DNA of 64,000 nt. Source: Sphaerolaimus hirsutus. Its lineage: Eukaryota > Nematoda > Chromadorea > Monhysterida > Sphaerolaimidae. Location of the stretch: the NCBI GenBank assembly GCA_964036195.1, contig OZ038454.1:8742001-8806000 (forward strand), in the 5' to 3' direction. The position numbers and the translations under genes are program-made. Under the pieces are notes generated by a model. The model was not told the DNA's origin and made no database searches. It saw nothing but the letters and a program-made list of their open reading frames with translations. Shown one piece after another: positions 22,596-57,823 of this stretch; within the stretch, counting starts at the first letter, position 1, and each line of letters opens with the position of its first letter.

Positions 22596-25500
22596 ATGGA
22601 TGACGATGATGTAGCTGGTTCATCTAATAGCGATAATCAGGTTTTGGCGAATATTCTGAAAAGTAGATCAGGGAGTGGTATTTTGTTTGGGCGGAAACAT
22701 TTCACAATTTTTAAGCCACAAAGACAATATACTGAAAGGTTCAAGCTAAATTTGAATGCATACAGGGTTTCGTTCCATGATTTGAATGAACACTCAAACA
22801 TTGATGCTGTTTTGAGTGAAGCAATAGACTGTGTATTCAGGTATTTTTGGTTTATGTCATAAACTGTTTTGGTTTTGATGCCATGCTTTTTTTTTTAGAC
22901 ACACTGTTGGGGACCGTCATCCGTCTAGTGTATATGTTGGTGTTTCACTACAGCATCCAAATTTGCCAGAATGTATGTTCCCCTTCTATGTTTACTTTAA
23001 ACATGGTTCCTGTTTGTAAAGAGTGTGTGTTACATTCACACAGCATATTTGGAGCACTTTCGTCTGGGAACTCGATTTAGCTCGGTTGCTTCAGCTCAAG
23101 ATATTGGAAATCTACTAAACTCTCATCAAACTATAAATCTGACTGACGGTTCTATGACACTGGTTGTTAATGTAATTGGTTTGTTAATGTTTCATTATCA
23201 TATAATGTTATGATGTAAGAGTGATAATTGTACTTTTTGATCACACCCAGAACGATAATGGATCCGGTCGATCAACCATCCTGTTCATATGTGGTTCCAG
23301 CCTCTGGTTCATTCAATTTAACCAGATGTTTTAATGATGATGATGATGGGAACGATTCTGATGTGTCGGATATTACAATACCTGAGGATTTGACTGACTT
23401 GAAGAACTATGGCACAGTTGGGAGATTGTGTGGTGGTCGCAGAAGATCCGCATATCAGGATGTGACAACTGCAAGATTACGACAATCAATGATGACAAAC
23501 AAACGTCGAAAACATTGTGAATATGTCGTTGCATCTGAACAAACTTTGATTTATGCCATATGCTTAGCATTAGGTAAAATACGTGCTTATAATCCGGATA
23601 AGGGTAAGGAATCTCGCAACTATTGGCGTCGTGTTAGACGTAATTGTCAAAAAAGTCCATCGGCGGAGCTTGAAAAGTTGGCATCTCAATTGCGTACTGA
23701 AGCCGGTTTGCCACCTGCAAATGTTTTTGTCGGCCTGGATGTTTTAGATATGATTCAAAATGTTCCCATGTTACGTGGTGTTGCAATTAGGGTTTTTCAA
23801 GAGGGTACTAAAGAGCAGGTTTGGCCACCATCTGACTCACACTTGCATACAATGTTAAGCCAACATGTAATCAATTTGTGTTTGTATCACCATGGCGGAA
23901 ACATATTTTTTGCTGTAATATGGGGTTTAGTGACCTTTTTAAGTGCATATGGATATTGTGAGGCATGTAAGGAGGTACAGTTTGGACAGAAAAGGTTTGT
24001 TTGTTTGCTAAGTTTTATTTATTGTTTTCAAGTGACTAATTTAGCATTTCATTTTTAGGCATATATGTCCATTTCGATGTGCCTATTGTGGGATTGTTGC
24101 TCTGACATCAACAAGGAAAATTACAAGTCTACTATGTGATTGTGAGAAAGTCAAAGGGGAAGAGAGGACATGTCCGGATTGTCTAAGAAAGTTTTTCTCC
24201 AACTTTTGCTTTCGGTACGTTTTGGACTGGTTTTTTTGTTGTAAATGATATGATGATATATATGTGACTTTTGGATATAGGCAGCATTTACATACACAAG
24301 GGAGAGGTCGATGGTCTATACCTCGATGCTATGCACAACGATTATGCGCTGGATGTGGACATTATTTTAGTCTCAAAAAGCTAGAGGATGGATCTTTTGT
24401 TAACACTCATCGGTGTTCTGAGGAAAGAACTTTTGGGTGTGGTTACTGTAAAAAGCAGGTGTCTATGAGTGAACCACATCCTGCATGTCATTTGCCTGTT
24501 TTGAAAGCACGCCAAACCGAAAGGTCCAAGAAAATTGTGTTTTTGGACTTGGAAACCAGAATATGTAGCAGTACAAATGTACACAAAGCGAACCTGCTGA
24601 CAACTATAGTGTGAGTTTTTGTTTTTGCTATTGTTTTCTATAATGCTTTAATTTTTCATCGTTGCCGCCACAGTTCATGTTCTCGTTGTTGGAAAAAGGA
24701 CATGTATGCGCCATGTGCCAAATGTGGTGTGGCAAGGGTCTGTGTTTGGGCAGGAGAGAATTGTGTATATGACTTTGTCGAAAGTTTTTTTTGCATTGGT
24801 GAGTTTTTTATAATTTCAGTTTTTCCATGATTCTTAATTTATCACTTGTCGTTTTCAGATAATGCCAATGCAACAATTGTTAGCCACTTTGGTAGCAGGT
24901 TTGACTTTCACTTTCTACTATCTGCGTTGATAGAACAAAACAAAACCCCAGAGACAACCTTTTCACGTGGCAATCGGTTACTATATGTCAAGTTCAAGGG
25001 TGGAATCAAACTGATATGCTGGGCAAACTATATACCTACATCATTGGAAAACCTGTGCAAATCATTCGAGGTTCCAGTGGCAAAATCGTTTTTCTGCTAC
25101 GATATGAATGAGGAATATGTGACAGATGCATACTGTCACTTACGACCCAAGTGGGAGTTTACGGTTTCTGGCAGAGATACAAACGCTTTTGATCTGTACC
25201 ATGCTGAACACTATGACAAAGCCTTTTGTGTTTTTGAAGAGATGTCAGTCTATTGTCAAAGAGATAGCTATGCACTATCATATGCAGCGATGCGTTTTCG
25301 AGAAGAACTAATAAACTTGTTGAAGGTTGATCTTTTTGCAGAAAAAGGTACTTTTACAATATCAGGATTGGCACTACGTGTATTCCAAAGTATGTTTGTT
25401 TGAATTGTTTTTGTCATGACTTTTTCCAGCATATTGTTATTTCACTTTTTAGTTCGATTCTTACAAGAGAATACATTGGCAATTTATCGAGGTGAAGCTC

Positions 25501-27999
25501 TGATGGATCGAAATAGTAGATTTTCAATGGCGTTTTTGACCGCATATAGTAGATATTTTGGTGTTAGTTATTTCATATTTGTTGTTGGTGTTGTTACATG
25601 TATTAATTATAGACCTTTAGGTTCACGTACAACATGCTGGCAACAATCGTGAATATGTTGTTCGTTGTGCCCGGAATCGACAATACAAAGTGGATGGTGC
25701 AGAGTTTGAAGGAGGCTCTAACACGCCATCACGGCTAATTGACATTCATGGATGTTTTTTTCATGCATGTCCAATGTGTACAAATCACTTGAGTGCTGTC
25801 AGGTATGTTGTTTGGTAAAGAAACGGTTGGTTTCATGCCTATATATACTACACATGTTGTTATTCATGCAGACCACTCACATTGCTCGGTGGTAAAACGC
25901 CGTTGCAGGTTCGAGAATATGACTTTTTTCGAGCTAATAACATTGCGAAGGCCGTTCGCCCTTTGCATTACGATGTATATTGGGAACATGAGTGTCGGAA
26001 TGTTTTAAGTTCAAATCGTGTAATGAAACAGTTTTTCACAGAAGCGTTATCAGATAAACCTTTGAGCATCTATGATGCTAACTTTGGTTAGTGTAGAAGT
26101 GGCATTTTTTTGTTGTTTTTTGTTTTGCTCTACTACTGTGTATCATATTGCAGGTGGCAGAATTGACACATTCCAAATTGGCACATATGACAATATGAAT
26201 GTTCAAAAGCCAAATGCAGACTTTTTGGACTTTTGCAGTTTGTATCCTGCAATGTGTTTAACAAAACCAATGGCACAAGGTCCTGGAGAAATTGTTACAG
26301 AAGGGGGGATTTCTGGAGACTTGAATGAATGGGTTCTGGTACGTTTTTCATGTTTTTCTGTTTTCATCATGTTGTTATGTTTTCAATATATCGCAGAGTC
26401 ATTTTGGTGTTGTCAAAGCATGGGTGCATTATACAAAGGCGGATATATTTGTTCCACCATTACCTTTCCGAGCCAAACTACCAGGAGGTGATGAGAAGAT
26501 TTTCTACAGTACATGTGCAGCATGCTGCATTGAGCAGAATGTAAATGTGTGCACACATACATTTCAAGAACAGATTTTTCGTGGAACATGGACAACGGTT
26601 TGTTGTTGTTGTTGCATACAGGTTTTTTCAGGAATTTGAAGTTTGCCCTTTTCAGGTTGAATTGTGTGCGGCAATCAGGAATACAGGACTGAAGATTGTG
26701 CGGATTGTTTCAGCTCATGTTTATGAGTCGCGTGTATGGTCAAGAGATGCTGGGGTTTATTCAGGGCTAATAAGCGCGTTCATGTTGGCATTCTATAAGA
26801 TAAAATGCCAAGCAAGCGGTTCGTTTTTTATTTTTATTCATGTAGGAATGATAAATAAATGTATTTGCTTTAGATTTACCGCCGGACAAGAGTGCAGAAG
26901 AATATTCAGCAGAAATTTTCGAGAGATTTGGCATTTACATTGCACCAACATCGTTTGCTCCAAATCCAGTGAAACGTTCTGTTGCCAAATTGATGATCAA
27001 TTCACTCATTGGAAAGTTTGCCCAGAAGAAATCCGGTTCACAGACAGAGTTTTTCAAAGATCATGGAAGCTTGTTAAAGGTTCTTGAAAATCCAAACTTG
27101 AATGTGCACTGGTTACAGGTTTACACTTGTGTTTATATATAGCACCATGTAAATTGTTGTACATTTCCCGCCCTCTCTTTCAGCACTTTGGTTCAGCGGA
27201 TGCATCAAAACTAGGACTAGAGTCTTCTGTAATGGTGCAGCATTCTATATCACAGGACTCAAGTTTGGCACATGTAGGTCCAAACAATGCGTTTAGTGTT
27301 CCAATAATCACTACAATGGTGACTGGCTATGCAAGAGTGGAGTTATATGAGGCTATGATTAGAATTCCAGAAGAATCATTGTTGTATACAGACACGTTTG
27401 TTATTATCCTTTTACCATGTGTTTATTTACATTAATATTGTACCATTGTTCTTGGTGTCGCAGGGATTCAATAATGGCTTTGGATGGGTCGAATTTGCAG
27501 TCGTTATGTGGGCATCATCTTGGACAGTTGACACCAGTGCTGAAGGATCGATTCAAATTGGAGCATATTTGCATTGTGGGGGTTTGTTTATATATGTGTA
27601 TAATTGATGAAAATTGTGTTTAATGTTATAACCTCATTGCAGCCTAAACAATATGCCTACACTGCAAAAAACCCTGACACTGGAGAAACATATAAGACTG
27701 TACGACTGCGAGGCTTTGCAACTGCTGCGGAAACCGATCAACAAGGACAGAGTGATAGAAAACCAACTGTCTCCTATGATAATATGTGTGATGCTGTCCG
27801 ATCTCTTTTAGAGCAAACCGAGTTGAAAAAATTAGGATTGAATGAACTCAACTTTTTGTTGAGTAAAGATTTTCGTATATCTGTTGATGGGCGGAAAAAG
27901 TATTATAAGCCTGTTTCAAATAAGCGTTTTTTTGTCCCGCCTGGTGTTGGAGGTGCTACGGCTATTCGAACTTTTCCATATGGATACAATCGCATTTAG
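22596..27999 (+). CDS. protein-primed family B DNA polymerase, 18 exons
   Basis: This replicates the element from a protein bound to each end. The exon model is 22596-22840, 22899-23005, 23044-23178, 23301-23994, 24059-24214, 24281-24610, 24674-24798, 24859-25389, 25453-25562, 25621-25802, 25872-26086, 26154-26338, 26397-26597, 26656-26818, 26874-27118, 27184-27395, 27464-27581, 27643-27999, about 1,436 codons; the 23179-23300 intron is the least certain. The middle has the Cys/His-rich region of Polinton polymerases (24059-24500). Proofreading motifs follow: FLDLET, HFGSRFDFHF and YCQRDSY. Polymerase motifs are DFCSLYP (motif A), KLMINSLIGKF (motif B) and the YTD and DSI halves of motif C, which an intron (27396-27463) splits. 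The C terminus ends in the usual TFPYGY-type tail. A poly(A) signal lies at 28046. All catalytic residues are present. Confidence 0.95.
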
Positions 28000-28073
28000 A
28001 CTATTGCTGTTATTATTATTATTATATTGTGTTATTAATGTGAAAAATAAAATCGCAGACTCTAATACTAAAT

Positions 28074-28074
<1 letters not shown>

Positions 28075-28106
<32 letters not shown>
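28075..28106. repeat. ACT trinucleotide microsatellite
   Basis: About ten ACT units lie between the polymerase poly(A) signal and the next start codon. Confidence 0.85.
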
Positions 28107-28129
28107 GGTAATATTCATGGTGCAGTAAC

Positions 28130-30521
28130 ATGATAATTGATTCACTGCGGTCGTCGTCGTCGGTCATCAATTTCGAACTGGATTCTGTTCGTGTGATTGC
28201 TGAAACAGAATATCAGTGTCTAACAGACAGTCAGAGACTATTGGAACGATTGAAAAGTGAGTTTTATTTACATTTCGTTTTGATTATGCTTCTTGTCCAA
28301 TGTCATTTTTCCCCCTTGCAGAATGTCCGATAATATCCCAAACACTGGCAACAATGTCAGTGGCAGAATGTCAGGCCAGACAGATAAGCATGGCAGAGAG
28401 TTCCATGTTTTATCAGCCACAAATGTTGCAGCAGCAGACTCAAGCACAGCCCATGGGAGAGATGATGGTGTTTCCAAACCCGCCACCAGCATTGCCACCA
28501 AGCCATATGGCGTTTCAGCAGCCGCAGCCACAAAGAGAAGTGCCACAGATACAAAGGTCAAACCCCCTGCCAGAGGTGGAAAATCTGGAGGCGGTATTGG
28601 AAGAGTGCAGCAAAACAGCAGTGGACCCAGTACAGATGGCCCTCCAGGTCGGACATGCTGTTTTTTGTTTTTATAACTTTGTAAAAATAATCATAATGTA
28701 CAAACGCAGAGTACCTCAACAGAAACGAGGCCGATGCCATTCGCAACAGAAACGTTGTCAGAGGGTTGGGAGGAGATGGTGTCGCGCATGCAAACGTCGT
28801 CGCCGCCGCCCCCCCCCGCCCAAGTCATTGGACCAAATGTCATCAGCACACAGTCACAATCCACACACAGCACACACGCAAAGCGAGCTCTCTTCCCCAG
28901 TAGTGTCAACAGTGACGACTATTGTGCAGACGAAAATACGAGATCTCAAGTGCCTGAAAGGATACCCCCAACAACACTGCAAATGGATACAGGATCCGCA
29001 AGGGGCAGACGTCGAAGGGTCTCTGGAAAAGTGCTCCCTGGACAACCAACAGAAACCGCCGCCGCCGCCGAAGAAATCGACAACGAGGAAAAAGACAAAT
29101 CATGTGAAATCATCCACGACAGCGGGGGGGATGACACCAGTGAGCATGAATTTGAGTATATTGGGAGTGATTTGCAAATGTTAAAGAGAGCAAAACCACG
29201 CCGCCTTGAAGCAGACATCGCTGGGCTATCACATGGTGTTACGCGATCCGACCAGCAGCAGCAACAACAACAGGAAGAAAAAAACCCAAAAGGACGAGAT
29301 GGTGGCTCCAGAAAGCGTCCAAGTGGAGAAGGTGGTGGAAACATGAGCAAAAAGAGTGCCAAAAGTTGGCGATTTGTTGAGAATTCCTTTTTTGCAGAGT
29401 GTCAGAAAATTGTACATCTTACAGACGAGGATGATATGGACGAGAATGATGAAAACGAGGACGACGACGACATGTTTCTCGAGGCTCTGGAAAGGTCTAC
29501 AATGGAGCAGCAGCAGAAGAAAAGAAACAGTGCAGACAAAGGGGTAGAAGAAGTGAAAAAAACGGCTGATGGAAGAAAGTACATTGGATTGACCGAGTTT
29601 GAACGTGGCATTCAACATGTGGATCAACATGGACGCAGCTCAATCCTTTCCCGTTTGTTGTCATTGTGCTATGTTTTTATTATTATATGTTGTGGTGGGG
29701 TATTATATTACAACACAGGTGGCAATCCCGCACTGTTTGATCAACCGTTTGTGAAGAAGGATGTACTCGATGCACCGCCGTTCCCCTTTCGCCCTCCAAA
29801 CACTGTGGTGTTTTGGATGTGCAGAACCTGCCGGGATATTTCACAACGTGCACGCGGGAAACGGTTTGCGAACGACCGCACAACCTTCATAATCGACATG
29901 TGCAAGGTTGTGTTTTGTTTTTTTGTTTGTCAACAACAGTGTTCAATATCATAGTAATGTGTGTGTACACAGCCATGCCGGACATTGAACTGCGAGGCAT
30001 ATGATCTGTTTCAAGGGGACAGTACAGAACGGGAGTTTGACACCTTGGACAAGTCGGAGATTGATGAGCGACACAAAAAGTACCCATATCCGATGCAGTA
30101 TACTCAACTGGTGGGGCCGCCGTTCTGTCTGACACGTACAGAGGCAATTGTTCTGCTAATGTGTGAATATTGCAGGTGTGTTTTTCATGTTGTTGTTATT
30201 CAAACGACACTTGCACATTTGTTTTTGTTTCAGGGCGGTGACATCTTTCCGAGAGTGCATGCGCGATGTGAATGGGAGATGTCGGGTATGTTTCTTGTTT
30301 TTCATGTTTTTCTTTTTGTTCACATGTGCTGCTCATTTTTTCAGCTGACCATTGACATGTGCCAAAAGTGTGTCACTGCCAATTACGAAATGTCAATGTC
30401 GACCTATCCAACCCAAGCTGAACTCGATCGTCAAAAGGGCCGCAGGGACTATTTTGCAGGAATGTATGATGGACATGGTAGCAAGGTCGTGCGTACCGCC
30501 GGAAAATGCATTCGCGATTAA
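28130..30521 (+). CDS. unknown 671-residue Cys-rich protein, 7 exons
   Basis: Exons 28130-28256, 28322-28647, 28710-29652, 29719-29906, 29973-30175, 30234-30285 and 30345-30521 join in frame. The N-terminal two thirds is low-complexity: Gln/Pro-rich, then acidic (about residues 330-390). The C-terminal third holds at least four CxxC knuckles (MCRTC, MCKPC, MCEYC, MCQKC), three of them at or near exon joins, suggesting a zinc-binding module. The intron 29653-29718 is a multiple of three; if retained it would add a hydrophobic stretch resembling a membrane segment. A poly(A) signal lies at 30609. The family was not recognised. Position right after the polymerase and the zinc knuckles suggest a nucleic-acid or regulatory role, but that is inference. 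Confidence 0.7.
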
Positions 30522-30804: not shown

Positions 30805-32013
30805 AAAGTATGTGTTTATTTGTATAAATTTCCCCCATGCTCTGGAAAAACAACACTGTTGATTGAACTAATTAAAAATAGACAACACATTTATGACCAT
30901 CCACCCGATCATTGTCTATTCTTGTTCAGCTATTGGCAGGAAAAGTATTTAGCACTAAAAACATATGCCGAGTTTGGCAGAACAGAAGATTTTTGTGACT
31001 CGTGGCGAACAATTGTGAAATATAAAGAGGAACTCGACGAGCGTTCAAACACAAAGGATTCACACTTGCTACTGGTTTTTGATGATTTATCAGCCAGTGT
31101 TTCATCGGCTATTGTTGATGTTGACGATAAAAGTGGAGAAGGTGTGAGCAAAAACAGTCGTTCAACAATAGGTGCTAATCCCACACGATTACTTCGAGAT
31201 CTCGCACAGGGAGCGGCCAGACATCATAACATTACGCTTGTAGCAACACTACAAAGTCTATTTGACACACAGGTATTATATGTTTTGAAAGTTTCTTCAT
31301 ATATGCATACATGTATGTATTCAAGCTTCACACCACCACCACCATTGCAGAATCTGAAACAAACACGCAGTTCGAGCGTTTATTTTGTACTATTCAGTTT
31401 CCCATCGGATGCATTAACTACAAAATCGTTTGCTCAACGTTGGCAAGACCCTGCACTATTTATTGGTGCATATAAACAAGCGATTGCAGACAAGAACTTT
31501 GGACATTTGTTTGCAAATTCTGATCCCTCAATTCCCGATGAACTAAGACTATCAAATTCAGTTTTCCCCTGGGACAAAGATCGTGTTTTTTATCAGTGGG
31601 AAAAGTTATCTAGTGATATTGATCATCAAGGTATTGACAATCGTAAAGTAGCAGCAACAACAGATAAGGCGTCATCAGGAGAAAAAGGCACCTTGAGGTT
31701 TGCGCCACTGTCACGACACGCACAACGACTGGGTCGAAAAGTTGTTGCTGTGCCAGCTGATATAGCAATAGAGCGTGTATGTGATTCAGACGAATCATTT
31801 CGAAAAGAGCTTTGTGCAGCTGGAGGTCCACTAAAAGCAAAGTGGTCAAGCTTGAATCGCCGTCACACTAGTGGTAGTAGCAGTAATAAAAAACAGACTG
31901 CAGAGAAGGAAAATCAACAGAATGACAGATGGACCTTCCAATCCCAACCGCCATATACAACAACAGCTTTCGGAGCTGCAAAGCAAGCCGCCGCAGGTAT
32001 CTCAACAACATAA
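30805..32013 (+). CDS. FtsK/HerA-type genome-packaging ATPase
   Basis: This would pump the element's DNA into capsids. Walker A is FPPCSGKTT at about 30829-30858, lacking the usual leading Gly/Ala. Walker B is LLLVFDDL at about 31066-31090. The sensor/arginine-finger region (LQSLFDTQ joined to LKQTRSS) is brought together by removal of the intron 31273-31350 (78 bases), and matches the QNLF...R pattern of Polinton ATPases. The tail after about 31620 is Ser/Gln-rich. The start is unresolved: a stop precedes 30805 and there is no ATG before Walker A. An upstream ATG frame at 30675 is out of phase, so a 5' exon or a frameshift is possible. Its end overlaps the next gene by 92 bases. Confidence 0.85.
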   Translation, partial: KVCVYLYKFPPCSGKTTLLIELIKNRQHIYDHPPDHCLFLFSYWQEKYLALKTYAEFGRTEDFCDSWRTIVKYKEELDERSNTKDSHLLLVFDDLSASVSSAIVDVDDKSGEGVSKNSRSTIGANPTRLLRDLAQGAARHHNITLVATLQSLFDTQVLYVLKVSSYMHTCMYSSFTPPPPLQNLKQTRSSSVYFVLFSFPSDALTTKSFAQRWQDPALFIGAYKQAIADKNFGHLFANSDPSIPDELRLSNSVFPWDKDRVFYQWEKLSSDIDHQGIDNRKVAATTDKASSGEKGTLRFAPLSRHAQRLGRKVVAVPADIAIERVCDSDESFRKELCAAGGPLKAKWSSLNRRHTSGSSSNKKQTAEKENQQNDRWTFQSQPPYTTTAFGAAKQAAAGISTT

Positions 32014-32524: not shown

Positions 32525-33727
32525 ATGGCTTGGCTCGAATTTAAACAGAAAGGACATAGACATGGTGTTGCTGAAGATCCTATAAAGAAAGCACGAATTG
32601 TAGGAGCAAACGACTCTAATCTATATGCACAGACAGTGGACGATAATGAACGACTAGCTAATTTTTTACATGGTGCTGCACGTAAAGTACGAGGACAACA
32701 TTTGAAAGAGCTGCGACGTGGCAACAATGTGGTTGATCCAAAAATCCCTGCAATACCTCCAGAAGCTGTTCTAGAAGAAGCACATAAACTACAACAGAAT
32801 ATAACACATAAAAGTAAAGGTGCACCTGTACCATACTCTAAAAACGCTGTCCCATTACCATATTCGGCTTCTCTTATACGTGCAAGTTTTGCACCAGAGC
32901 ATAGAGCAAAAGTGGATAAGGTTCTTAATGCATTGGAGCCTATTGCATCCGATGTTTTGGATCCATTGGGGCATTTGAAAATACCCGGAGAAGAGCAACC
33001 TGGAGCTGATGTGTTTGATTATTTACATCATGGAATTGTTGGACCTGAACCTGGTACAAGTTCTGCCCCACCAGAAGGTTCAAGCTATTTCTACAACAAA
33101 GTTATGGATAGCTATGAGAAACAGCAACAACAACAAAAAGTACAGGGGCAGAAAAGTGGAGATGTAAGTGCTAAAATACAAACAGAGGTTCAACAAATGC
33201 CACAGACTGGAGGAGTGACAACAAAACAAGAAACCGATCGAGTCGAATCTAGTGATGGTGAAGGCTATGATCGAAACTTGGAGGCAGAAAAGGCCGATTC
33301 AGATGTTGTTGAAGACGACAGTGTTATAATTGAAGACGATACTGATCAGGACGAGCAACAAGAGGATTTTAAAAGTGCTCCTACAGAGTTTGGAACCCCA
33401 TTAGAAGAGATTCCAAAAAGAGGCGGCGGCGAATCAACCCGACAAAGTATAACACCGAAACCACCTAGAGAAATTCTCAAGCGTGGTCGTGGCCGACCTC
33501 GTGGTGCTGTCAGTTCTCGTGGGGGGGCCAGTAGTACACAGCCCGAAGTACCTAAGAGAGAGGTTGCGAAACGATCTGCTGCGATTGTAGCTAGTACAGC
33601 ATTACGGGAACAAACAACCTCTGAAGACGACGAGGACGAACCTCACCATCGTGTGCCTAGAGGTAGAAAGGTACCTCGACAACAGGTGCCTAAACACTAT
33701 AGTGAAATAACAAAAAAATCACATTAA
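32525..33727 (+). CDS. unknown 400-residue AT-hook protein
   Basis: It starts at ATG 32525 just after a TAA microsatellite and has no intron. The first 180 residues are a folded-looking basic/neutral domain I do not recognise. This is followed by a Gln- and acidic-rich linker, then a Lys/Arg/Pro tail with a canonical AT-hook core (GRGRPRG, about 33487-33507). AT-hooks bind the minor groove of AT-rich DNA, so a chromatin-like or packaging role in the virion or at the terminal repeats is likely but unproven. Confidence 0.65.
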   Translation: MAWLEFKQKGHRHGVAEDPIKKARIVGANDSNLYAQTVDDNERLANFLHGAARKVRGQHLKELRRGNNVVDPKIPAIPPEAVLEEAHKLQQNITHKSKGAPVPYSKNAVPLPYSASLIRASFAPEHRAKVDKVLNALEPIASDVLDPLGHLKIPGEEQPGADVFDYLHHGIVGPEPGTSSAPPEGSSYFYNKVMDSYEKQQQQQKVQGQKSGDVSAKIQTEVQQMPQTGGVTTKQETDRVESSDGEGYDRNLEAEKADSDVVEDDSVIIEDDTDQDEQQEDFKSAPTEFGTPLEEIPKRGGGESTRQSITPKPPREILKRGRGRPRGAVSSRGGASSTQPEVPKREVAKRSAAIVASTALREQTTSEDDEDEPHHRVPRGRKVPRQQVPKHYSEITKKSH

Positions 33728-33738
33728 TCTCTATCGTG

Positions 33739-35902
33739 ATGATGCATAAACAATATACTCAAAATCTTGGTGGTTCTAAATGGTTACGTACACAATATAA
33801 TCTACCTAGTGATGAGTGGCGAAAACATGCTCTATTAAATGAACCGGCGTATTATTTAAAAGGACATCCATCCTGGAGACGTGGTTTTGAGCGATTACCT
33901 ATTCTTGTACGTTTTTCCTGTGAATTGTGATGATATTTTATAATTAACCATGTGTCTTTATCATTACTTAGGTAAGCGGCCCAGATCGGTTTTGGTCTGT
34001 TGATTTAATGGTGATGCCAGAACGTGATATGCATTCCAATGACAATTATCGTTATATTTTGGTATGCTGTGATGATTTTACAAATGAAGTTTGGATGGAA
34101 CCATTGAAACAAAAGACAGGTTTAGAAGTGACAAGTGCTTTCAAGCACATTATGAAACGTAATAATGGACGTGCCCCCATGCGTTTGCGTTCCGACTTTG
34201 ATCGTTGTTTCATGTCTATACACTTTCAAAAGATGCTATATGGTGTTAGTTTTTTATGTTCAACTGTAAGAACAACAACAACAATAGGTATTGCACCATA
34301 CAGATAAAGTGCACGTTTGCTCCAGCTGCTGAGGATGTAACACGCCTACCAAAACTGGACTCATTTATTCGAAACATTCGCAAACGCATCGAAATGTATT
34401 TTATGACTCTTGGGGAGCAGCAAAATCCAGAGGGTAAACACCGTCGATGGTTACACATTTTGCCGGCAATTGAAACACAAATGAATACAACACAAACACG
34501 TGCTTTGTTTGGAGCAGCTCCTGTTGACACATCAGAGCCACAAAGTGCAAATGCACATGCATTATTGGTTGCACGCCAATTGCGACATAGACGGAGGCGT
34601 GCACAGCCAAATACTGTATACAGTGCAACCAGTCGTGAGGCAGCGGACGCTGCACATGAAAAACTATCGTTGCTGACTGGCTGGGTCCGCCTTTCAAGGC
34701 CACCGCCAGCACATGGAAATCCTATAAAACTGGTTGCGCGTGAAAAATATACACGCGAGGTTTTCCCACTTGGCCGAAGATTTGTGCAGCCCGATAAACC
34801 AGATACTTATTTCGTCTTGGATCCACAGGATGAAAAACTAGCACCTTTAAAAGGACGATTCTATCGACAAGAATTGATTGCAGCTAATCAACCTGACAAT
34901 ACTAAACCGCCCGCTGTTGCACTTGATAATCTTACTAGAGCAGGTGAATCCAGTAGGATCGGCAGTGATACGACAGCGACCAAGACCACCAATATTGGAA
35001 ACGGTGGAGGAAAAAATGACAGCAATGACAACGCCGGTACTCCTAGTGGCCGTGCTGATAATAACAAGCGTGGTGCTAATAACGGCGGTGTCGGCTCTAG
35101 TTCTAATGTTAATGGTTCAAAAGTGGCTGATTACAACAATAGTGGATTTTCAACATTGCAATCAGTGGAGGAAATCAGCCAGAGACAGCAACGCTCACTC
35201 GAATCACAACAACAATCATCGAAACAACAACATAGAGCACCACTATTACCCGTACGAGTTTCAACCACCACCACAACCACCAATGTTGCCAAACCTCGCA
35301 ATACCGATGCAACTACCAATGGAGTCGTCAATCTTGGGGAGACGTCGTCGACGTCACATGCAGCAGCAGCTGCAGCAGCAAAACAAAGCCGCCGCCGCCA
35401 CCGACACAAAGAGATGGGAGAGGCACCTTTACGAAAGAGTAAGCGACAGGAGGAAAGACGACAACGACAACAACAACAACAAGAGCGTGTGAGTTTCTAT
35501 TTCTATTATGCATTATGATGAGTCATTATTATTATTATGATTATGTTGCAGGATCATTCTCACACAACCAATACTACCATTGGTGGAAGGCAACCAAAAG
35601 ACAGATCACAGTCAAAAACATATGAGCGCGCGCCCCCCCGTCGCGGTGCCTTCGGCGCCGCCGCCCCCCGTAAAGAAAAAGGTGGTGCAAGACGGCGGCG
35701 CAAGCGTGGTGTCGGTCCGTCCGCTCCCAGCGCCGAGGAAAACAGGGGGGGCGGGAGGCGGTCGCCACAACAGACGCAGCAGCAACATGGTAATGGGCAA
35801 CGCCGCATGATCGGTGGTCATCATGGCCGGAAAACCAGAAGGAAATCAGAAAACACTGGCCGCCGACAAAGTGCAGCGCGTCTTCAGGAAAAGAAACAGT
35901 GA
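33739..35902 (+). CDS. retroviral-type (rve) integrase with long basic tail, 4 exons
   Basis: It inserts element DNA, making the 6-bp duplication. Exons are 33739-33906, 33972-34265, 34304-35488 and 35552-35902 (665 residues). The first catalytic Asp is in SVDLMVM; the second region is YRYILVCCDDFT...LRSDFDRCF. The third acidic residue normally sits in a VERFNRT-like helix; here the matching helix reads LDSFIRNIRKRI, with Asp, and a nearby Glu (AAEDV) is the other candidate. The intron 34266-34303 is only 38 bases. A C-terminal module (REVFPLGRRF...GRFYRQEL) matches the Polinton integrase end domain. After about 34900 the protein turns Asn/Gln/Ser-rich and then very basic, an unusual tail of about 300 residues. 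A poly(A) signal lies at 35993. Confidence 0.9.
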
Positions 35903-39114: not shown

Positions 39115-39295
39115 TGATTGTTGTGGTGTCTTTGCTATTGTGTTAATTCAATAAAATCAATTTCTTGATACTGTCCAATGCGTACTTGTTTGTGTGTAGT
39201 ACAATACACATGCATATGTTTCGATATATGCAATATTGTGTCGCTTTTACATACCGTGTCATTATACATATGGTTCATCAGCACTAGCTTACATC

Positions 39296-44033: not shown

Positions 44034-44062
44034 ACGGTCGTGGTATTCTTGATTGCTTTCCC

Positions 44063-46423
44063 TCACTGGTCGGCAGCTGGCACTGCGCCAACCATTTCCA
44101 GCTTGCGCCGTGCCACCTGCAAAGTGAATAAAAAGAATTGACCATGACAGCTTAACATTGATTTTACATTGACTATTTGGTTTCTGACATGCATTGACAA
44201 AAACATTGTTTGTGATATCACACCCCCCACTTCACCCCACTTCACCCCACTTCAAATACAAACCCCACCATCAAACCCACCTGACGCAGTGGACTGGTCA
44301 TAACTGGCAAATCGTCTGTGAGCTGGTTCAGACCCAGCAGCTGCCAGATTACATCTTCCTCTATTGACGTTATCACACTGTCTAGATCGCCCCCTGGACA
44401 CTTGTTGGGAACTGGCACCGTTGTATCCATGTCCGGCATTTGCTTTGCCTCTTCCACCAGCATCTCCTCCAGCTTCTTTAGAGGAGGTAGCTGGAGGTGC
44501 TCTCGTGCTATCTGTCGCATGCGTGGACACATCTCCAACTGGACCGTCTCGTTCACCTGTAGCAGCTCCCTGATCTTCTCCATCTCCATTGGCAGGCTGT
44601 CCAGATCCAACTGTTGTTCTGCGCTTCTTGACGACGTGGCCACTGTCACCTGTTGGTCCTGACCTTTCGCTGGAGAGCACTGTGCTGACCCTGTCTGTTC
44701 CTTGTCCATCACCATGTTTGCTGCCTTTTTTTCCAACTGCCTTAGTTCCAGCTTTGAGTTGACATGCTTCAGCAAGCGCGTTTGTGGTGATGGGGAGCTG
44801 TTGCGACTGCTCTTGGTGCTGCTGGCTGTTGCTTTGCACTTCTTGCACCTGCGCTTCTTTCTGGCCGTCTGCGACTGTGGCGAACTGTTGCTTTTGCTGC
44901 TTGAGCTGCTGTCGCTGGATGTCCAGCCCCATTTGCCACGCCACTGATGCTTCTTCATATGCTTTGCCACGGGCTGACCCCCCTTCTGCGGTGAGCTGAA
45001 CAGCCTTTTCCTGACGCATATCACTGCGTTGTCTGCATTTGTGACCCTTTTCAGTTGTCTCTGCTCCATTTTTGGGGCATTCAACAGGCCACTGGTGCTG
45101 GTGCTGGTGCTGCCGTATGCTTGGGTCATTGCGTTCAACCCCCTCACTCTCCATGTTTGCATAACCGTCATTCCTGGTAGACACTTTGGTGGTGGAGACC
45201 CCACAATCACCACCTCCAGTTCTGACCTCCTTTTCTTTGCTACCGGTCCATGTGGTGTCTGTGGTGCCCGCTGTGCCCGTCCTACCTGTGGTACCCGTGG
45301 TTTCTGTGGTTTCTGTGGTTTCTGTGGTGCACCCGGCGGCTGTGGTCTCTGTGGTCCCTCTGGTGCACCCGGTGCCTGTGGTGTCTGTGGTGCAGCTGGT
45401 GCCTCTGGTACAGCCGGTGCCTCTGGTACAGCCGGTGCCTGTGGTACAGCCGGTGCCTGTGGTACAGCCGGTGCCTGTGGTGCAGCCAGTGCCTGTGGTG
45501 CAGCCGGTGCCTCTGGTGGAGTCGGTGCCACTGGCACCACTGCCTTTGATGTGCTGGCTGGCCAGTCTGCCACTATTGGCCTTTGTTGGGGAGTGCCTGG
45601 TGGTAGTGGAATGGCCTCTACTGGGAGCTGCTTTTCCACCTCCATGGGTGCCTATAAGGGGGTGGGAGGTGAGATTATTTTACAGTCATCGTTTAATATG
45701 TGATATGTGTGCCCCCCCTAAAACGCCAAAAGCACGACAACATGTGATATGTATGATCCCATGGTATGTAAAACGGTACCACACAAACATAAAAACAATC
45801 CTCTTATCAACATACCTTTGTCTTTGAGTCCACCTCCATCTGTGTAGCTTGACCTTCTGTCTCCTGGGACGTTGTGTCCATTGGGGTTTCTACCTGGGCC
45901 TGTGGGACTACAGCTGGGGTCACTGATGACATCTGCACAGGGGGTGTGGGGGGGTTTGAATCAAAGTACAATAAACATAGCACATTTCCATCTTCACAAC
46001 CATCTTCATGACAAAACAAGAATGTCAACAAAAAACATCAACAAACCAAGGTGCAGCCACTGTCCTTCTGTTTCTGGTGGCTGTCTGCTGTTGCTGTGTC
46101 CATCTGGGTGGCTGGGTTGCTGTCGACCGATGTGTCGTCGCTGCTGACCGGTGTGTTCCTCTGCAAAATGAAAGCACAATCACTAAAAATGTATTGGTAG
46201 ATTCAACATTGAACATATAAAGAAAAAGTGATGAAAAAACAAACCTGCTCCACTACATCTGCCCTCCTTTCTTCTTCCAGCACTCTCTCTTGAACCCGCA
46301 CTAGTCTTTCTCTTGTGAGATTTGGCCTTGATGTTGTCACCACAACCGTTGAACTGGTCTCCCTCAATCGTTGCTGTGTGTGGGGGGGAATGGGAATGGA
46401 CAATGGAGAAAATGACCGTTTCG

Positions 46424-46457
<34 letters not shown>

Positions 46458-48232
46458 TCACAATAAAAACATGAAAAAACCACAAACCTGGGGGGGTGGG
46501 GGCTGTCCATCTTGCCATCTCCTCAGCCGTTCCGGATCGGTGTCCTGTCTTTGTGTCCTTTTTGTTCTGACCATTGTGTCCTTGTCTGGTGATTGTGGCC
46601 TGCTGGAAGGAGGGGGTCTGCTGCCAGGAGGGCACCTGAATCTGAGTGGTCTGAGTTGCTGATTGTCCACGTGTCGATCCACTATCTCTGTAATTACTGT
46701 CACTGATGTGGTCACCACTTCTGTCTGACTGCCCAGATTTTGCTCCACATTCAACCTGGTGGCATTCGGTGGTGCTGTTCTGGCCAGCACAGCTGCAGAT
46801 TCCGGGCACAGATGTCCCACTTGTAAGGATTGGCTGTTGGCTGTAGGTAGTGATATGGCCACCTTGGTTGTGTCTGTGTGAAAGGGGGGGGGGATAAGAG
46901 ATAAAAAACATATTGGCATTCGCTGGCGGACCATAGCAAATCCACAAAAAATGTGACATTCAACAGCAACATTAGCAAACATAAACAAAAATGACCAACC
47001 CTGGCTTCTGTCCACCAGTGCTACTTGACCGTGTCGTGGGTGGCAGAACATTGGGAACAGGCCTGAAATCCCTGACCCTTTCGATTGCTGGTGATGGCGG
47101 TACGCGTTGAACGTCAGCAACAAGCACCCTGTGTTTGTACAAGAATGTTTACACTTTTATTTGCCACATTTACTTCAATAATTCCCCTGACTAATTCCCC
47201 TGAAAAGTAATGAAATAAATCCCCGGGGGGTCTTACACTTTACATATTGTGGCATGTGGTTGAGTAAAAATAACCCCCTGGGGTCTTATTTGTGAAGCCA
47301 CCCCCACCAACCTTGCTATGGGTATGTCCACAGTTGACACACGCCCCCGTCCACGTCCGCGTCCGCGACCACACAGGGCAGCAGACCCGTCCACCTGCTT
47401 CACTTGCTCCAGCTCGGTCTGTGCCAGGAGCTCTGGCCTTCTTGGTGGCTGCTCGTCAGCACAGGGGGGGGTGTAGATCCCAGCTTTGACCACCGGCTTG
47501 ACAGCTGTCGGGCCTGTACAAAAAAGGTGACTAATGAATTTGTGTCACCAAAACATCAAACATTCACACAGGCCAAAACACTCCAAAAGTCCCATATTCC
47601 AACCCACCTGGCTTCCAGAAAGTGGACAGCGGTCCACCTGTAGATGCTTTAGCAGTGTGATTAGCTGCAACAACAGCAGCATACGTTCGCGCCGGTGCGT
47701 GTTGGGTGTTGGGGGTGGTGCTGACAGGTTTGGTGCTGACAGGTTTGGTGCTGGTGGATCCAGCAGAATCGATGATGTCTGGTGCCTGCAATATTTTGCA
47801 CAATGTTATACACCACAAATTCACAAATAATACCCCAGGGGTTTATTTTTTGCTCATCACATGTCACATGAAAAAAGTCTCTAAGAATCCAACTTCACTT
47901 TACATCACAGTTTTGAGGGGGAATTATTCAAGAGGGGGAATTTTTTCAATTGAAAACAAATATTCAAGAGAAAAGGAACCTTCTCACAACTACACAAAAG
48001 CTAAAATGAAAAACTAGCCTTGCTTTTGCTCTGAACCTCACTTTTCTTGCTGCCACACTGCTCCACTTTTGAGGTGCCAAACAGCAAGTGTAGCTCCTTG
48101 AATGCCTCCTTGAAAACCTCCACCAACTCCTGGGAGGTTTGACTGCCTTTGACAGTTACAAGCTCAAATAAGAGCTTCTGCCTGCTGCCAGTGCTGTCTT
48201 CCAGATTGTATGACAACACTCCACCGATTGTC
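44063..48232 (-). CDS. unknown Pro-rich multi-exon protein (5' exon not found)
   Basis: Exons on the minus strand: 48232-48037, 47785-47608, 47513-47312, 47128 to about 47000, about 46868-46488, 46373-46245, 46160-46047, 45932-45816, 45651-44281 and 44116-44063. Phases agree at all but the fourth/fifth junction, which has two possible models. The protein has an Arg/Gly run (RGRGRGRGR), an array of APAVPQ-type repeats (about 45540-45400), a KKRRCKKCK patch and a helical C-terminal region ending at a stop at 44063. The upstream phase shows that a further 5' exon exists to the right. No family is recognised. The order of modules suggests a scaffold or nucleic-acid-binding protein, an inference only. 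Confidence 0.55.
46430..46455. repeat. AC dinucleotide microsatellite
   Basis: About 12 AC units in an intron of the minus-strand Pro-rich gene. Confidence 0.85.
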
Positions 48233-48391
48233 CTGAGTGTGCAAAAAACATAAATATTAAATATAAAATCGTATAAAAGATGGTTATTGTTGCATTTTTC
48301 ATGTTTCTTTCTCTAAAAGTGTTCATTGGAACACCACATTGCTGTTTACACCTGTCAAATCGCCAGATCCAACGTAAACATATTATACTCG

Positions 48392-48577
48392 GATGACATT
48401 ACGCCATATATTTTTTCTGGAGGAAACACTCCATCATGACGTCATCACTTTCGTCCCGATCATCACACTTCGCCATCATGTCGTCTTCACCACGTCTTCC
48501 ATAAGTTCTCGGCTGGCCGTCTGCCAGCCGAAGACATAACCCCTATCTGTTTGTAGGGTATCGTATCTGCCGAGTAT
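48392..48577. repeat. TATACTCGG-ended element (family G) inside the Polinton
   Basis: TATACTCGG at the left pairs with CCGAGTATA at the right. The interior contains GGAAACACTCCATCATGACG, also present in the copy at about 63378-63645 outside the Polinton. Confidence 0.55.
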
Positions 48578-48620
48578 ACCAAGAAAACGTACAAACACTT
48601 TAATAATGGTGGAGTACTGT

Positions 48621-49430: not shown

Positions 49431-52400
49431 AATGCTCCAGCGAAAGCTTCACACATGGAGATTTCAGAGTTGACCGAATTAAGAGCGAGTGGGGTGTGGC
49501 CGGCAAGCTACTATTGCCTGCAGAATTTTGTGATCTACATGTGCAGTTGAAGCCACGGTAGGTGTCTTACATGTACATTGTGTGGCTTTTTCGATGTTCA
49601 ACAACCTATCGTAAATTCTTGAAATAAGTTCCAGGGATTTTTTTCAGTCACCTACCGCAAACCCTTGAAAAAGTACAAAAGTGTTTATTTTCAATATCGT
49701 AAATCATCTAAATAAGACCCAGGGAATTTATTTTTCAACTAGCTACCGTAATTCCTCGAAATAAGCCCCAGCGAATTTATTATTTCCACAATCTACCGCA
49801 TTTGCTCGAAAAACGCCAACGTATTTATTTTCTCAATCTTTCAACAACCTACCATAATTGCTCGAAATAAGACCCAGGGAATTTATTTTTGCAACAATCT
49901 ACCGTAATACCTCGAAATAAACCCCAGGGAATTTATTTCTCAACCATCTACCATAATACCTCGAAATAAACCCCAGGGAATTAATTTTTTCAGCAATCTA
50001 CCGTAATACCTCGAAATAAGTCCCAGGGAATTTATTCTTTCAACAATTTGCTCGAAAAGCGACAACATATTTATTTTCAACAACCTACCATATTTCCTAG
50101 AATTAATCATTATCCTACCATATTTTCTCAAATTAAGCCAAGGGAATTTATTTTTCAAAGTAGAAACATTCAAAATTAGTATTTCAAGTGGGGGGATTTT
50201 AAGTAGAATTAATCCAAGTGAGTATAATTCGACGAAAAATAGCATACTTATCACATATCATGAAAACCACAACCTTTCAGCATTGGACCGAACACTCTGA
50301 TAGAATGCAAAAGTGGCAAACTCGAAATACCCTCCACGCACCTGCCCCTCAAATCGGACGATTGGCCAACATCCACATCCACTAGCACAGCAGCACCACC
50401 TGGCAGCACAACCACCCCACCGAGAAGAACCACAACTACAACAAGCCAATATGACATTGACTACTATGTTACAATGCCAGGGGACACAGTCACAATGTCC
50501 AAGGCGGTTGGTTTTTCAAACCTTTTAGTTTTATAGATGGGTTTTCACTGAAAAAGGTATGTATTTTGGTCACTCGTAGGTACACACATGTGAAGGCATG
50601 GAAAAAATAAAAAGTGACATTTCAATGCAACAAAAATTACTTGTCACTCAACATGTTGAACAAATGAAAACATTGCATGAGCTCAAGGATAATGGGTTGC
50701 ATATTCTGAAAAAAGCAGATAAGTGTGACGTTGATGGCAACCGTGTAGAGATGAATGAAAAATTAGAGCACTTTGAAAGCAGCCTTTTGTTGAAAATGGC
50801 GGAAACCAACAGCCACCTTTTGGAAAACGTTTCACACTGTGTTGGCTTGTATGAAAACAATGTCAATTCCATGGAAGAACTTTTGGGCAAAGTTGAACAG
50901 GTGTCACTTTCACATGTGTAAAATGATCTTTGAAGTGGTAAAAATAATGTAAAATAACATATAAACTACCAAATATTTTACCTCTATTTGATAGTTTACA
51001 TGTTATTTTACATTATTTTTACCACTTCAAAGATCATTTTACACATGTGAAAGTGACCCCAGGTGTCAAAGCACTGTGCCAATGATAAAAGATGTAATAC
51101 CGTGGAAATGAGCAACCATCTATTGGAAAACATTTCACATTGTGCTGGCTCATATCAAAACAATACAAATTCCATGGAGCAACTTTTGGTCAAAATTGAA
51201 CAGGTGTCACTTTCACATGTGTAAAACGATCTTTGAAGTGGTAAAAATAATGTAAAATAACATGTAAACTACCAAATATTTTACCTCTGTTTGGTAGTTT
51301 ACATGTTATTTTACACTATTTTTACCACTTCAAAGATCATTTTACACATGTGAAAGTGACCCCAGGTGTCAAAGTACTGTGCCAGTGATAAAAGATGTAA
51401 TATAGTGGAAATGAGCAACCATCTATTGGAAAACATTTCACATTGTGCTGGCTCACATCAAAACAATACAAATTCCATGGTGCAACTTTTGGGCAAAATT
51501 GAGCAGGTGTCACTTTCACATGTGTAAAATGATCTTTGAAGTGGTAAAAAATAATGTAAAATAACATGTAAACTACCAAATAGAAGCAGTAAAACCTTAC
51601 ATCTATTTAATAGTTAACATGCTATTTTACATTATTTTTACCACTTCAAACATCATTTTACACATGTGCAAGTGACCCCAGGTGTCAAAGCAATGTGCCA
51701 GTGATAAAACTACAGTGGAAATGAACAACCATCTATTGGAAAAGGTCTCACATTGTGCTGGCTTACATCGAAACAATACAAATTCCATGGAACAACTTTT
51801 GGCCAAAATTGAGCAAGTGTCACTTTCACTACATCAAAACAACACAAATTCAGTGGAACAACTGTTGGGCAAAATTGAGCAGGTGTCACTTTCACATGTG
51901 TAAAATGATTTTTGAAGTGGTAAAAGTGATGTAAAGTAAGATGTAAACTACCAAATAGAAGTACAAAAACCTTATCTCTACTTGATACTTTACATCTTAC
52001 TTTACATCACTTTTATTACTTCAAACATCATTTTACACATGTGAAAGTGACCCTAGGCGTCAAAGCAATACATCAATAATAGCAAAGAAAACATGGCACA
52101 TTTGATAAACAATGACCTAAACATTCTGAAAAACCTCAATAGCATGGAAACCAGCATTGAGAGCACCCTTTCAACCATGATGGAAAAATACAGTGCACAC
52201 ATTGTGGAAAAACTGGCAGTACAAAACAACATTATCACTGCTCCAACAGTGGCTGCAGCAATGGTATGTACATAAGGTTTTTTCTATAAAAGCTTTTCAA
52301 CATTCAAAACCTTGTTTTAGGACAATGACATCCATCATGAGAAACTGGAAAGCAGAACGCAAGCATTTTTGGATAAGGTTGAAAGGATGCTTCAAAAACA

Positions 52401-56180: not shown

Positions 56181-57823
56181 ATGACATCACTGAAGTTGAA
56201 CATAAATAGAAAGTCTAAATCTCAACTACACAAAAATCAGAGTTTACAAGCTCTAACTTTCCATGAAATGTCTCTGAAAACAGCTGTCTATAGTCTGGTC
56301 ACAGTCCCAGATCCTGTAAAATGTGGAACAAAGTGTCAAACATCATGTAAAATGTCATGTAAAATGCAACTTTTCATGAAGTTTACCATGCTAACATGTA
56401 CAACTCCATGAAACAGTGACACTTTACATGACACTTTACATCACATTTGGCAGTTGGCACTACATTTCATAGAATTTGGGACAGACCCCAGGCCACAATC
56501 CAATCAACCATTCTTCCCGACACGGGCAAAATACAGTTGGAACATAATGGCATGGCTGTGCAGATAGAGGTTTGTTCGTTCTTCATCACATCAGTTGGTC
56601 GTCCTTGTGAATTCATCTGCGGTATGTGGTGTGTTTTTCAGATTTTCAAAACGGTGGTTGTAGAGAATGTACAACAGACAGAAGTAAACATTTATGTTCC
56701 AAAAAGATTCATGGAACACCTAGCAGTGACACTTACACCATCGCAAATTGACACACTTATTTCCACCTGTGTGAAAAAGTTATTGCACGATCAAGATCGT
56801 AAGTTACATTGTTTCTCGACTGGCCCCCATGTTACACTTTTTTTATTTCACATTCACTCAAACAGATTTATATTTGCTGGGTCGCCGCCGCCCCAGCCCC
56901 CTTAGAGATGGCAAAACCATGCCCAAATTTAGGATAAAAATACCGGAAAACATGGATTTTGCATTCACACACCCTGTATATAGAGACGACCCTGCAAAAT
57001 CAAGAGAAACAGTCATTGATTTTGCACAAAGGTGTCGACACTATATCGATGCAGAATATCTTACAAGTTTGTTCTTTTTTAACATCACCAAGGTTACACC
57101 CGCGGCAAAATAAAAACCGTGTAAACGTTGCATGTGCAGGAGACATGCCCGACAACATTGTCGGCTGGTCTTGCAAAGTTTTGAAAATCTTGGACCGCAA
57201 TGAATTGGCAGAAAATTTGGAAAATAGGCGGTCCATGGACAATTTCATGAATTTCACACTCAAAAATCAATGTGTGATTACGGAAAATGGTGAAATTATC
57301 CACACGTCAGTTGATAATCCCACTTATTTATGAATCATTTTCATTATAAAAAACACATTTTCACCCCCCCATTTTCCAGGTGCAAGTATTGTGAGGGCAC
57401 CAAGAAAAATCGGCCCATGCTACATGTCCCATATCTCATTTGCACAGGGTGCTTTTCGCATGAGCCCCTGAAAATACCGAGGGAATTGCTTCCCTTTGTG
57501 CAATTTAATTGGCGCCATGTTGACAAACTTGTAGAAAAAGGCAATTCTGCCCAAAAAAGAAAAATAACCACCCCTCTTGTCGAGCACCATAGGCATGACA
57601 AAATTCAAAAAAGGTCGGGGCTCATGCATAACGTACTACCTTTATAAAATACCGTATTTAAAAATTCAAATACGCTCCGCCCACCCCACGCAGAATGCAT
57701 GAGGCCGCATTCAAACGTACGGTGCAGAAATTTGCAGTTTCAAAATCCACCCAGACAAAGTCCAAATATTTGGAGAATGTGTCTAGTGATTTTCAGAAAA
57801 AACCTGTGAAAAAATGCATGTAA
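56181..57823 (+). CDS. unknown 360-residue zinc-ribbon protein, 7 exons
   Basis: Exons 56181-56297, 56492-56569, 56642-56798, 56866-57066, 57140-57305, 57380-57613 and 57694-57823 join in frame. The last junction uses a weak donor (AGGTCGGG). Two CxxC pairs (CKYC and CTGC, about 18 residues apart) brought together in exon 6 make a zinc-ribbon candidate. The C terminus is Lys-rich. The N-terminal two thirds has regular helix and strand patterning (VTLTPSQIDTLISTCVKKLL) but no family I know. Intron 1 (56298-56491) is a family A palindromic repeat. It is the last gene before the right terminal repeat; a poly(A) signal is at 57866. A transcription-factor-like role is possible but only inferred. 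Confidence 0.65.
56298..56491 (+). repeat. palindromic family A repeat that is intron 1 of the zinc-ribbon gene
   Basis: It starts GTCACAGTCCCAGATCCTGTAAAATG and finishes CATAGAATTTGGGACAGACCCCAG. The inner blocks GTAAAATGTCATGTAAAATG and GACACTTTACATGACACTTTACAT are mirrored. The same family forms adducin introns at 2886-3061 and 1074-1230. Confidence 0.75.

Follow-up and report, generated by a model that had tools for sequence, protein, structure and literature searches.

Polintons, also called Mavericks, are close to the root of many DNA viruses of eukaryotes, and a protein-primed type of family B DNA polymerase is typical of them. Those of vertebrates have terminal inverted repeats (TIRs), a 6-bp target-site duplication (TSD), and genes for a polymerase, an integrase, and a capsid protein, all of which are shared by the element described here. 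This element lies in a stretch of 64,000 nucleotides from the nematode Sphaerolaimus hirsutus (positions 8742001 to 8806000 of contig OZ038454.1, C6 in our numbering, in an assembly of 348 Mb and 762 contigs); the whole of this stretch is referred to as the window, and positions are those of the window. We conclude with high confidence that the element is a 37.9-kb Polinton of a multicopy lineage, that approximately 30 predicted GT-AG introns of approximately 64 bp interrupt the genes for its polymerase, integrase, and likely capsid protein, and that it would need the host spliceosome.

Intron-free genes are a usual, although not a defining, trait of Polintons, and the element departs from it. 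The vertebrate elements differ from it in being intronless: for 134 intact Mavericks the relevant section of one study describes intronless frames and states that "No introns were observed" (PMC8097293). In a protist survey, a prokaryotic gene finder was used since such endogenous viruses "do not contain introns" (PMC10120064), while an excerpt of another study attributes group I introns to some protist Polinton-like viruses, including those of one cryptophyte (PMC12220804). In Amoebidium, a relative of animals, adintoviruses form Polinton-related insertions of approximately 30 kb, and the remark in that text that there are few to no introns refers to giant-virus regions and not to the adintoviruses (PMC11244446). 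Numerous GT-AG introns, with a length peak at approximately 80 bp, are described in part of a report on mirusviruses (Okeanovirales and Styxvirales), which also sets out a ratchet model (PMC12768974). No spliced Polinton was found in the portion of the open literature on introns in Polintons, Mavericks, and related viruses that was covered (PMC6431247 and PMC3671162 included); work beyond this portion, such as that on nematode Mavericks, could hold one.

RESULTS

Polymerase exons and introns evolve differently across copies of the lineage

A semi-Markov gene model, for which open stretches served as training data, predicted 31 plus-strand introns with a strict intron length range and 39 with a loose one. 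The strict introns have a median length of 64 bp, with 27 of the 31 measuring 52 to 72 bp, and in 30 of the 31 read-through is impossible. They are distributed over phases 0, 1, and 2 as 12, 9, and 10, and their T content is 46.7%, compared to 24.7% in exons. Intron density in the strict set is 0.8 per kb across the whole element and 1.7 to 2.1 per kb in the core. The initial annotation, which had proposed about 65 short GT-AG introns, was right that the core genes are split by short introns, but its count was not established, as 31 to 39 are predicted on the plus strand and the rest are candidates. A predicted intron at 30812-30881 is probably wrong, because splicing it would delete the P-loop-like CSGKTT stretch of the ATPase. 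A still looser model with 115 introns was dropped as overfitted.

To find copies of the lineage in the same genome, the polymerase exon at 24831-25400 was used as a query, which returned at least 158 matches (the best 150 of 272 candidates were scored). By a hand count that includes the window and takes small contigs as found, at least 105 places match this exon at 63 to 100% identity. Below these, identity falls to 24 to 27%, and 13 of the 15 such rows listed sit in open frames of 805 to 1,557 amino acids (aa).

The polymerase gene of the window, itself one of the best 30 copies, was compared with the other 29 over 2,331 exon and 522 intron sites. From each end 150 reference columns were trimmed; an untrimmed run had exon insertions of 65 to 103 bp in approximately 12 copies, which were read as edge effects. 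Exon gaps are absent from 24 of the 29 copies, and the 33 that were found include 18 in L037 and 12 in L041, two copies that look disrupted and were retained in the count. Intron gaps number 199 across the 29 copies, 156 of which are not multiples of three. Where exon divergence is between 3.5 and 16% (L026 to L036, L038 to L040, and L042), introns diverge at 1.8 to 2.6 times the exon rate; in L039, for example, divergence at codon positions 1, 2, and 3 is 0.098, 0.062, and 0.311, respectively, and 0.407 in introns. These comparisons indicate that the exons are under purifying selection in the best 30 copies, L037 and L041 excepted, and that the introns drift freely.

Eight polymerase junctions were then surveyed in each of 50 copies, comprising the best 30 (window included) and 20 selected divergent copies. 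Among 380 introns measured, 363 have GT-AG ends, 5 have GC-AG ends, and 12 have other ends, and 328 are 52 to 78 bp long. The other 20 junction sites consist of 6 without an intron, 2 of odd length, and 12 unmeasured. Eight of the 12 "other" ends fall on the junction at 24215..24280, which is explained if the model donor at 24191 was set 24 bases too early, as is probable. Divergent copies of approximately 63 to 83% identity retain introns at the same places.

Presence and absence of single introns

Seven copies (L055, L056, L060, L062, L064, L073, and L074) lack intron B (26598-26655) with no scar at the site, and their local frame is intact. Relatives that lack a segment and keep the frame, which the initial annotation had regarded as evidence against splicing, were therefore found for this one intron. 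As the other measured copies keep GT-AG at this site and the seven other introns are nearly always retained, the absence is read as precise loss, and a single loss would account for it most simply.

Intron A, of 58 to 68 bp, interrupts exon 24859-25389 at an identical position in 15 of the 20 divergent copies, which were picked mostly because this exon appeared split, and does not occur in the window's clade. In a tree of 28 copies based on a separate exon (197 residues), the carriers of intron A fall on one side of a branch supported at 100/99, and six copies lacking intron B are nested inside the A-carrier group on their own 100/99 branch. L056 was labeled in this tree as bearing intron B; the junction check found it to be without. 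A second tree of 98 columns, with intron-free rows included, gave the same two groups with support of 88/96 and 99/96. The distribution of intron A could reflect either a gain or a loss, as the intron-free rows are too remote to serve as a root.

Intron-free Polintons in the same genome

A search of the genome with the polymerase family identified at least 142 matches (the best 70 of 391 candidates were scored) in open frames of 914 to 1,605 aa, with a stop in one listed match. Intron-free Polintons of this genome (L001/L010, L002/L012, and others) carry a homologous polymerase (22 to 37% identity in pieces), an integrase, and a gene of the major capsid protein (MCP) type, and have the order polymerase, ATPase, integrase, and MCP in common with the spliced lineage. 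They differ in that the polymerase occupies one open frame, as do the other genes in the two neighborhoods read, and their identity to the spliced lineage over the test exon is only 24 to 27%. The genes near L001 and L002 are arranged as polymerase, ATPase, an extra frame, integrase, a 339- to 357-aa frame, a basic protein, an MCP-type frame, and a protease-like frame; names other than integrase are in part presumed. The MCP-type frame, which has no Pfam match, we take to be such from its size and its place. The integrase of L010 matches rve with an E value of 2.8e-5, below the curated cut-off. Since intron-free Polintons share the genome, these comparisons indicate that dense splicing belongs to one Polinton lineage and is not a trait of this host's Polintons generally. 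Near one intron-free Polinton, an open frame (L009:902-2530) matches Monjiviricetes_fusion (E value of 7.8e-17) and, weakly, Glycoprotein_B.

Genes of the element

Three pieces of the polymerase gene, in three different frames, match PF03175 collinearly: 24846-25403 (E value of 1.7e-9; profile positions 7 to 190), 26066-26488 (a weak match, E value of 0.018; 225 to 266), and 26855-27139 (E value of 6.5e-7; 368 to 403). Spliced alignments were made with proteins of the intron-free Polintons of the same genome as queries, with eight shuffled queries (four for the protease) as the null. The polymerase scored 329 against a null maximum of 77, the MCP 168 against 55, and the integrase 91 against 48. 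Polymerase motif C reads ...LLYTD/(T)/DSIMALD and is broken by the intron at 27396-27463, compared to an unbroken YSDTDS in intron-free L001, which bears out the proposal that an intron splits this motif. The integrase exon at 33972-34304 matches the rve core with an E value of 6.7e-8, above the curated cut-off, and the capsid piece at 39563-40261 matches MCP-type frames of intron-free Polintons with E values of 1.5e-14 (L012:5333-6760) and 5e-14. From the gene set named in the initial annotation, homology thus upholds the polymerase, integrase, and capsid genes and makes the ATPase likely, while no similarity was found that would justify the name penton. A search of the PDB with the integrase exon gave no match, and structure prediction for two single exons without alignment was uninformative (pLDDT of 35 and 28).

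With the codon table of the core, two minus-strand introns were predicted at 41.3 to 49 kb and none in the flanks or other stretches tried. With the region's own codon table, there were 14 candidate minus-strand introns at 41.3 to 49 kb and 2 to 9 candidate plus-strand introns at 49.5 to 58 kb, depending on the stretch supplied. Within a minus-strand accessory gene, a tandem repeat of 9 to 18 bp (45245-45550) encodes a proline/alanine-rich protein. No introner origin was apparent among the 31 strict introns, which share only 12- to 22-bp matches and are not mutually similar.

Controls and contrary evidence

The introns stand out from chance by length and by extended motif. Of the GT-AG introns, 82% lie within 8 bp of the median, which ranks GT-AG first of the 125 dinucleotide pairs with at least 15 introns. 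The pairing GT[AT]TGT...[TC]NCAG at 52 to 72 bp has 12 occurrences on the coding strand within the core and two on the opposite strand (100 shuffles, 2.5 +/- 1.5; maximum, 9), and GT[AT]NGT...[TC][TC]NCAG occurs 9 and 4 times, respectively (shuffles, 2.6 +/- 1.6; maximum, 8). In homology-guided runs with two penalties, GT-AG ranked 2 and 1 among 256 pairs for the polymerase.

A number of results weigh against the conclusion that the core genes are densely spliced. GT-AG was not in the top 15 of 256 dinucleotide pairs in one gene-finder scoring and ranked 52 to 140 of 256 in four settings of a second; in a third it ranked 3 of 256, with donor information at 17/125 and acceptor information at 56/125. 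Controls based on dinucleotides only therefore fail to separate GT-AG from other pairs, although rival pairs such as TT-CA would be the same sites shifted by three bases. The left flank also contains the motif GT[AT]NGT...[TC][TC]NCAG seven times (shuffles, 2.5 +/- 1.6; maximum, 9), and the loose form GTNNGT...YAG, with 45 occurrences against 27 on the opposite strand, is within the range of shuffles (33.2 +/- 5.5; maximum, 47). The homology-guided rank of GT-AG is 9 of 256 for the integrase and 56 for the MCP, and no branch-point consensus was found among the strict introns. The ATPase aligned weakly (56 against a null maximum of 49), and its profile comparison with hhalign was also weak (E value of 0.029; probability of 1.7%), with the aligned stretch at the expected place; a packaging ATPase at 30805..32013 is nevertheless likely. 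The proposed penton has no similarity to the candidate of the intron-free copies (spliced alignment of 41 against a null of 47), and profile comparison did not rescue it. A cysteine protease was not found by homology at 28 to 42 kb, where the query from an intron-free copy scored 40 against a maximum of 41 in four shuffles.

The comparison of copies covers the polymerase and one capsid stretch, the latter against one other copy (L075). There, the exon class (3,702 sites) has a divergence of 0.244 and 14 gaps, 3 of which are not multiples of three, and the intron class (310 sites) has a divergence of 0.387 and 8 gaps, 4 of which are not multiples of three. This appears to agree with the polymerase, yet the contrast is smaller and the evidence weaker. 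We infer the removal of introns in the cell from selection on the DNA copies. For the polymerase gene, it is this comparison of copies that, at the level of DNA, decides the intron question.

Ends, extent, and flanks of the element

The Polinton-type provirus is a complete insertion that spans 20482-58366 (37,885 bp), limits set by its repeats and target duplication; the extent first proposed, 22596..57823, was too small. Five hallmarks of Polintons/Mavericks are present, namely, TIRs, a 6-bp TSD, a family B polymerase, a retroviral-type integrase, and a capsid-type gene (Table 1). The TIRs of approximately 348 bp differ by one mismatch and one 1-bp indel, and their near identity suggests that the insertion is recent; the element is likely a recent insertion of a multicopy Polinton (Maverick)-type lineage.

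Several repeats were noted in and around the element. Tandem units of approximately 303 bp at 50793..52084 (plus strand) contain near-perfect inverted repeats of approximately 76 bp, and part of the array is open on that strand. Another repeat (CTATCTATC..CGGAGGCC) is present in similar form at 53692-53887, inside the element, and at 2121-2177, in the flank, and may be a host repeat that entered the element. In the left flank, 18772-18830 (minus strand) gave a weak tRNA match in Rfam (32.5 bits) and none with ARAGORN, and the right flank holds another repeat element at 58800-62183 with repeated and inverted blocks of approximately 60 to 230 bp.

Table 1. Features of the spliced Polinton and its borders, in window positions
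Feature	Position	Strand	Remarks
TSD GGAATA, 6 bp, left copy	20476..20481		Adjoins left end
Left TIR	20482..20829	+	Begins AGCAGTATAACAG; element starts AG
331-aa unspliced open frame	21512..22507	-	No Pfam match
Family B DNA polymerase gene	22596..27999	+	18 exons (strict model); PF03175 pieces, spliced alignment
Intron, 58 bp	22841..22898	+	Model only
Intron, 71 bp	22973..23043	+	Model only
Intron, 68 bp	23183..23250	+	Model only
Intron, 64 bp	23995..24058	+	GT-AG in 46/49 and GC-AG in 3/49 measured copies
Intron, 66 bp	24215..24280	+	Strict model places donor at 24191, for which GT-AG is seen in 41/49 measured copies
Intron, 63 bp	24611..24673	+	Model only; boundaries of next small exon uncertain
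Intron, 56-75 bp, uncertain donor	24784..24858	+	Both models and homology-guided run
Intron, 63 bp	25390..25452	+	GT-AG in 49/49 measured copies
Intron, 58 bp	25563..25620	+	GT-AG in 47/48 measured copies
Intron, 69 bp	25803..25871	+	GT-AG in 47/48 measured copies
Intron, 67 bp	26087..26153	+	GT-AG in 47/48 measured copies
Intron, 58 bp	26339..26396	+	GT-AG in 45/48 and GC-AG in 2/48 measured copies
Intron B, 58 bp	26598..26655	+	GT-AG in 41/41 copies measured as present; seamless absence in 7 copies
Intron, 55 bp	26819..26873	+	Model only
Intron, 53 bp	27131..27183	+	Model only
Intron in motif C, 68 bp	27396..27463	+	Strict model and homology-guided run
Intron, 61 bp	27582..27642	+	Strict model and homology-guided run
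Spliced gene model	28130..30521	+	Introns 28257-28321, 28660-28709, 29653-29718, 29910-29972, 30176-30233, 30286-30344; model only
Likely packaging ATPase	30805..32013	+	P-loop-like CSGKTT; later part resembles ATPase of intron-free copies
Open frame	32525..33727	+	Strict model
Integrase gene model	33739..35902	+	Introns 33907-33971, 34245-34303, 35489-35551
Spliced gene model (penton in initial annotation)	36007..38285	+	Introns 36131-36202, 37333-37400; penton identity not confirmed
MCP-type capsid gene	39287..41237	+	Introns at approximately 39535-39599, 40217-40284, 40545-40607, 40922-40985, 41108-41196; strict model fragments gene, models differ
Accessory genes with proline/alanine-rich repeats	42009..48399	-	Candidate introns 46374-46487, 46161-46244, 45933-46046, 45652-45815; donors GTTTGT/GTATGT
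Possible accessory gene with candidate introns	56268..57823	+	Weak
Right TIR	58018..58366	-	Ends CTGTTATACTGCT; element end is CT
TSD GGAATA, right copy	58367..58372		Adjoins right end

Introns of the host

For comparison with the host, a small sample was taken from actin genes only, in which 15 introns were found, one of them (717 bp; alignment score of 34) not credible. The 14 credible introns range from 236 to 1,020 bp, with donors such as GTGGGT, GTGAGT, and GTCGGT, and the T content of all fifteen is 31%, compared to 0.47 as a fraction in the element. At the median the element introns are approximately five times shorter, and their donors are GTATGT, GTTTGT, and GTTAGT. The actin exons look metazoan. 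One actin gene, on a small contig (C637:307-1423), is compact, unlike the long-intron actins of the chromosomes, and is possibly a contaminant.

DISCUSSION

The proposal of the initial annotation, that this is a Polinton with spliced core genes expressed through host splicing, is supported by the comparisons of copies, with splicing itself deduced from selection. Under such a scheme, the host would transcribe the integrated element in the nucleus, and the nuclear spliceosome of the host would remove the introns from the transcripts before proteins could be made. The element's own polymerase and integrase would let it spread as DNA, and introns would persist because this route, having no RNA stage, preserves them. 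Loss of intron B likely occurred through recombination with a spliced, reverse-transcribed copy or through precise deletion. Copies as little as approximately 65% alike still retain their frames and splice sites, and spliced products are therefore likely to be needed for spread; the introns could then act as a ratchet that binds the lineage to a nuclear life cycle. On balance, we lean toward a Polinton lineage bound to the nucleus by minimal introns of its own, unlike those of the host in length, base make-up, and donor, which it gains and loses while multiplying.

The same mismatch in intron style with host actin could arise if the introns reflected an earlier host in which introns were short, with the lineage moving to the present host later. 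We consider this possible, though rather improbable. Single-exon queries of a protein collection, viral contigs, and prokaryote genomes gave no close relatives above thresholds, which is in keeping with such a move, but the last two collections are unlikely to contain relatives of this kind. Selection favoring small introns in a genome that is packaged could equally explain the mismatch, and further host genes might reveal a short-intron class.

The differences from actin introns in length (64 compared to 236 to 1,020 bp), T content (0.47 compared to 0.31), and donors would also suit introns that serve as a regulatory gate, spliced efficiently only in some tissue or state, with the element silent elsewhere. 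The third intron of the P element is reportedly limited in its splicing in this manner. This idea, which would add to the preferred explanation and not replace it, we regard as unlikely, the host measure being drawn from actin genes alone.

It is very improbable that an intron-free Polinton integrated and that its copies later acquired introns as host sequence during decay or domestication. Introns in endogenous nucleocytoviruses are viewed as a sign of decay in a passage of one report (PMC12768974), and intron-free Polintons do exist in this genome. However, near-identical copies at many places have the same introns, which argues that the introns travel with the element, its TIRs and TSD are fresh, and both the purifying selection on exons (again with L037 and L041 excepted) and the intron places kept at approximately 63 to 83% identity are contrary to decay. 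That there are no introns, the segments being indels in a broken, frameshifted element, has next to no probability and is already refuted for the polymerase gene, since the failure of GT-AG alone to outperform other dinucleotide pairs is outweighed by the length peak, the strand-specific GT[AT]TGT pairing (12 compared to 2), conservation over 50 copies, and seamless absence in seven.

A spliced Polinton lineage would escape surveys that, like the protist one in its statement on gene finding, assume intron-free Polinton genes (PMC10120064). If the reading of a nucleus-bound lineage is true, approximately 100 copies in one genome would naturally document how introns turn over in a DNA virus, beside intron-free cousins. 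Copies of graded similarity would allow the gain and loss of single introns to be dated, and the proposal that introns act as a nuclear ratchet would become testable in a small element.

By analogy, the closest precedent for the dense splicing seen here would be the intron-rich mirusviruses. As portrayed in the available part of their description, these too are DNA viruses with short GT-AG introns in core genes and a predicted dependence on the host nucleus, but they belong to an unrelated phylum tied to tailed phages and herpesviruses, are predicted mainly in protists, and for the most part have no DNA polymerase (PMC12768974). The same part gives their density as up to 0.65 introns per kb genome-wide, with a 14-fold higher density in morphogenesis genes than in other genes, figures that are not like-for-like with the 0.8 per kb of the element and the 1.7 to 2.1 per kb of its core (PMC12768974). 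With the lineage described here, Polintons would gain a counterpart to the intron-rich mirusviruses.

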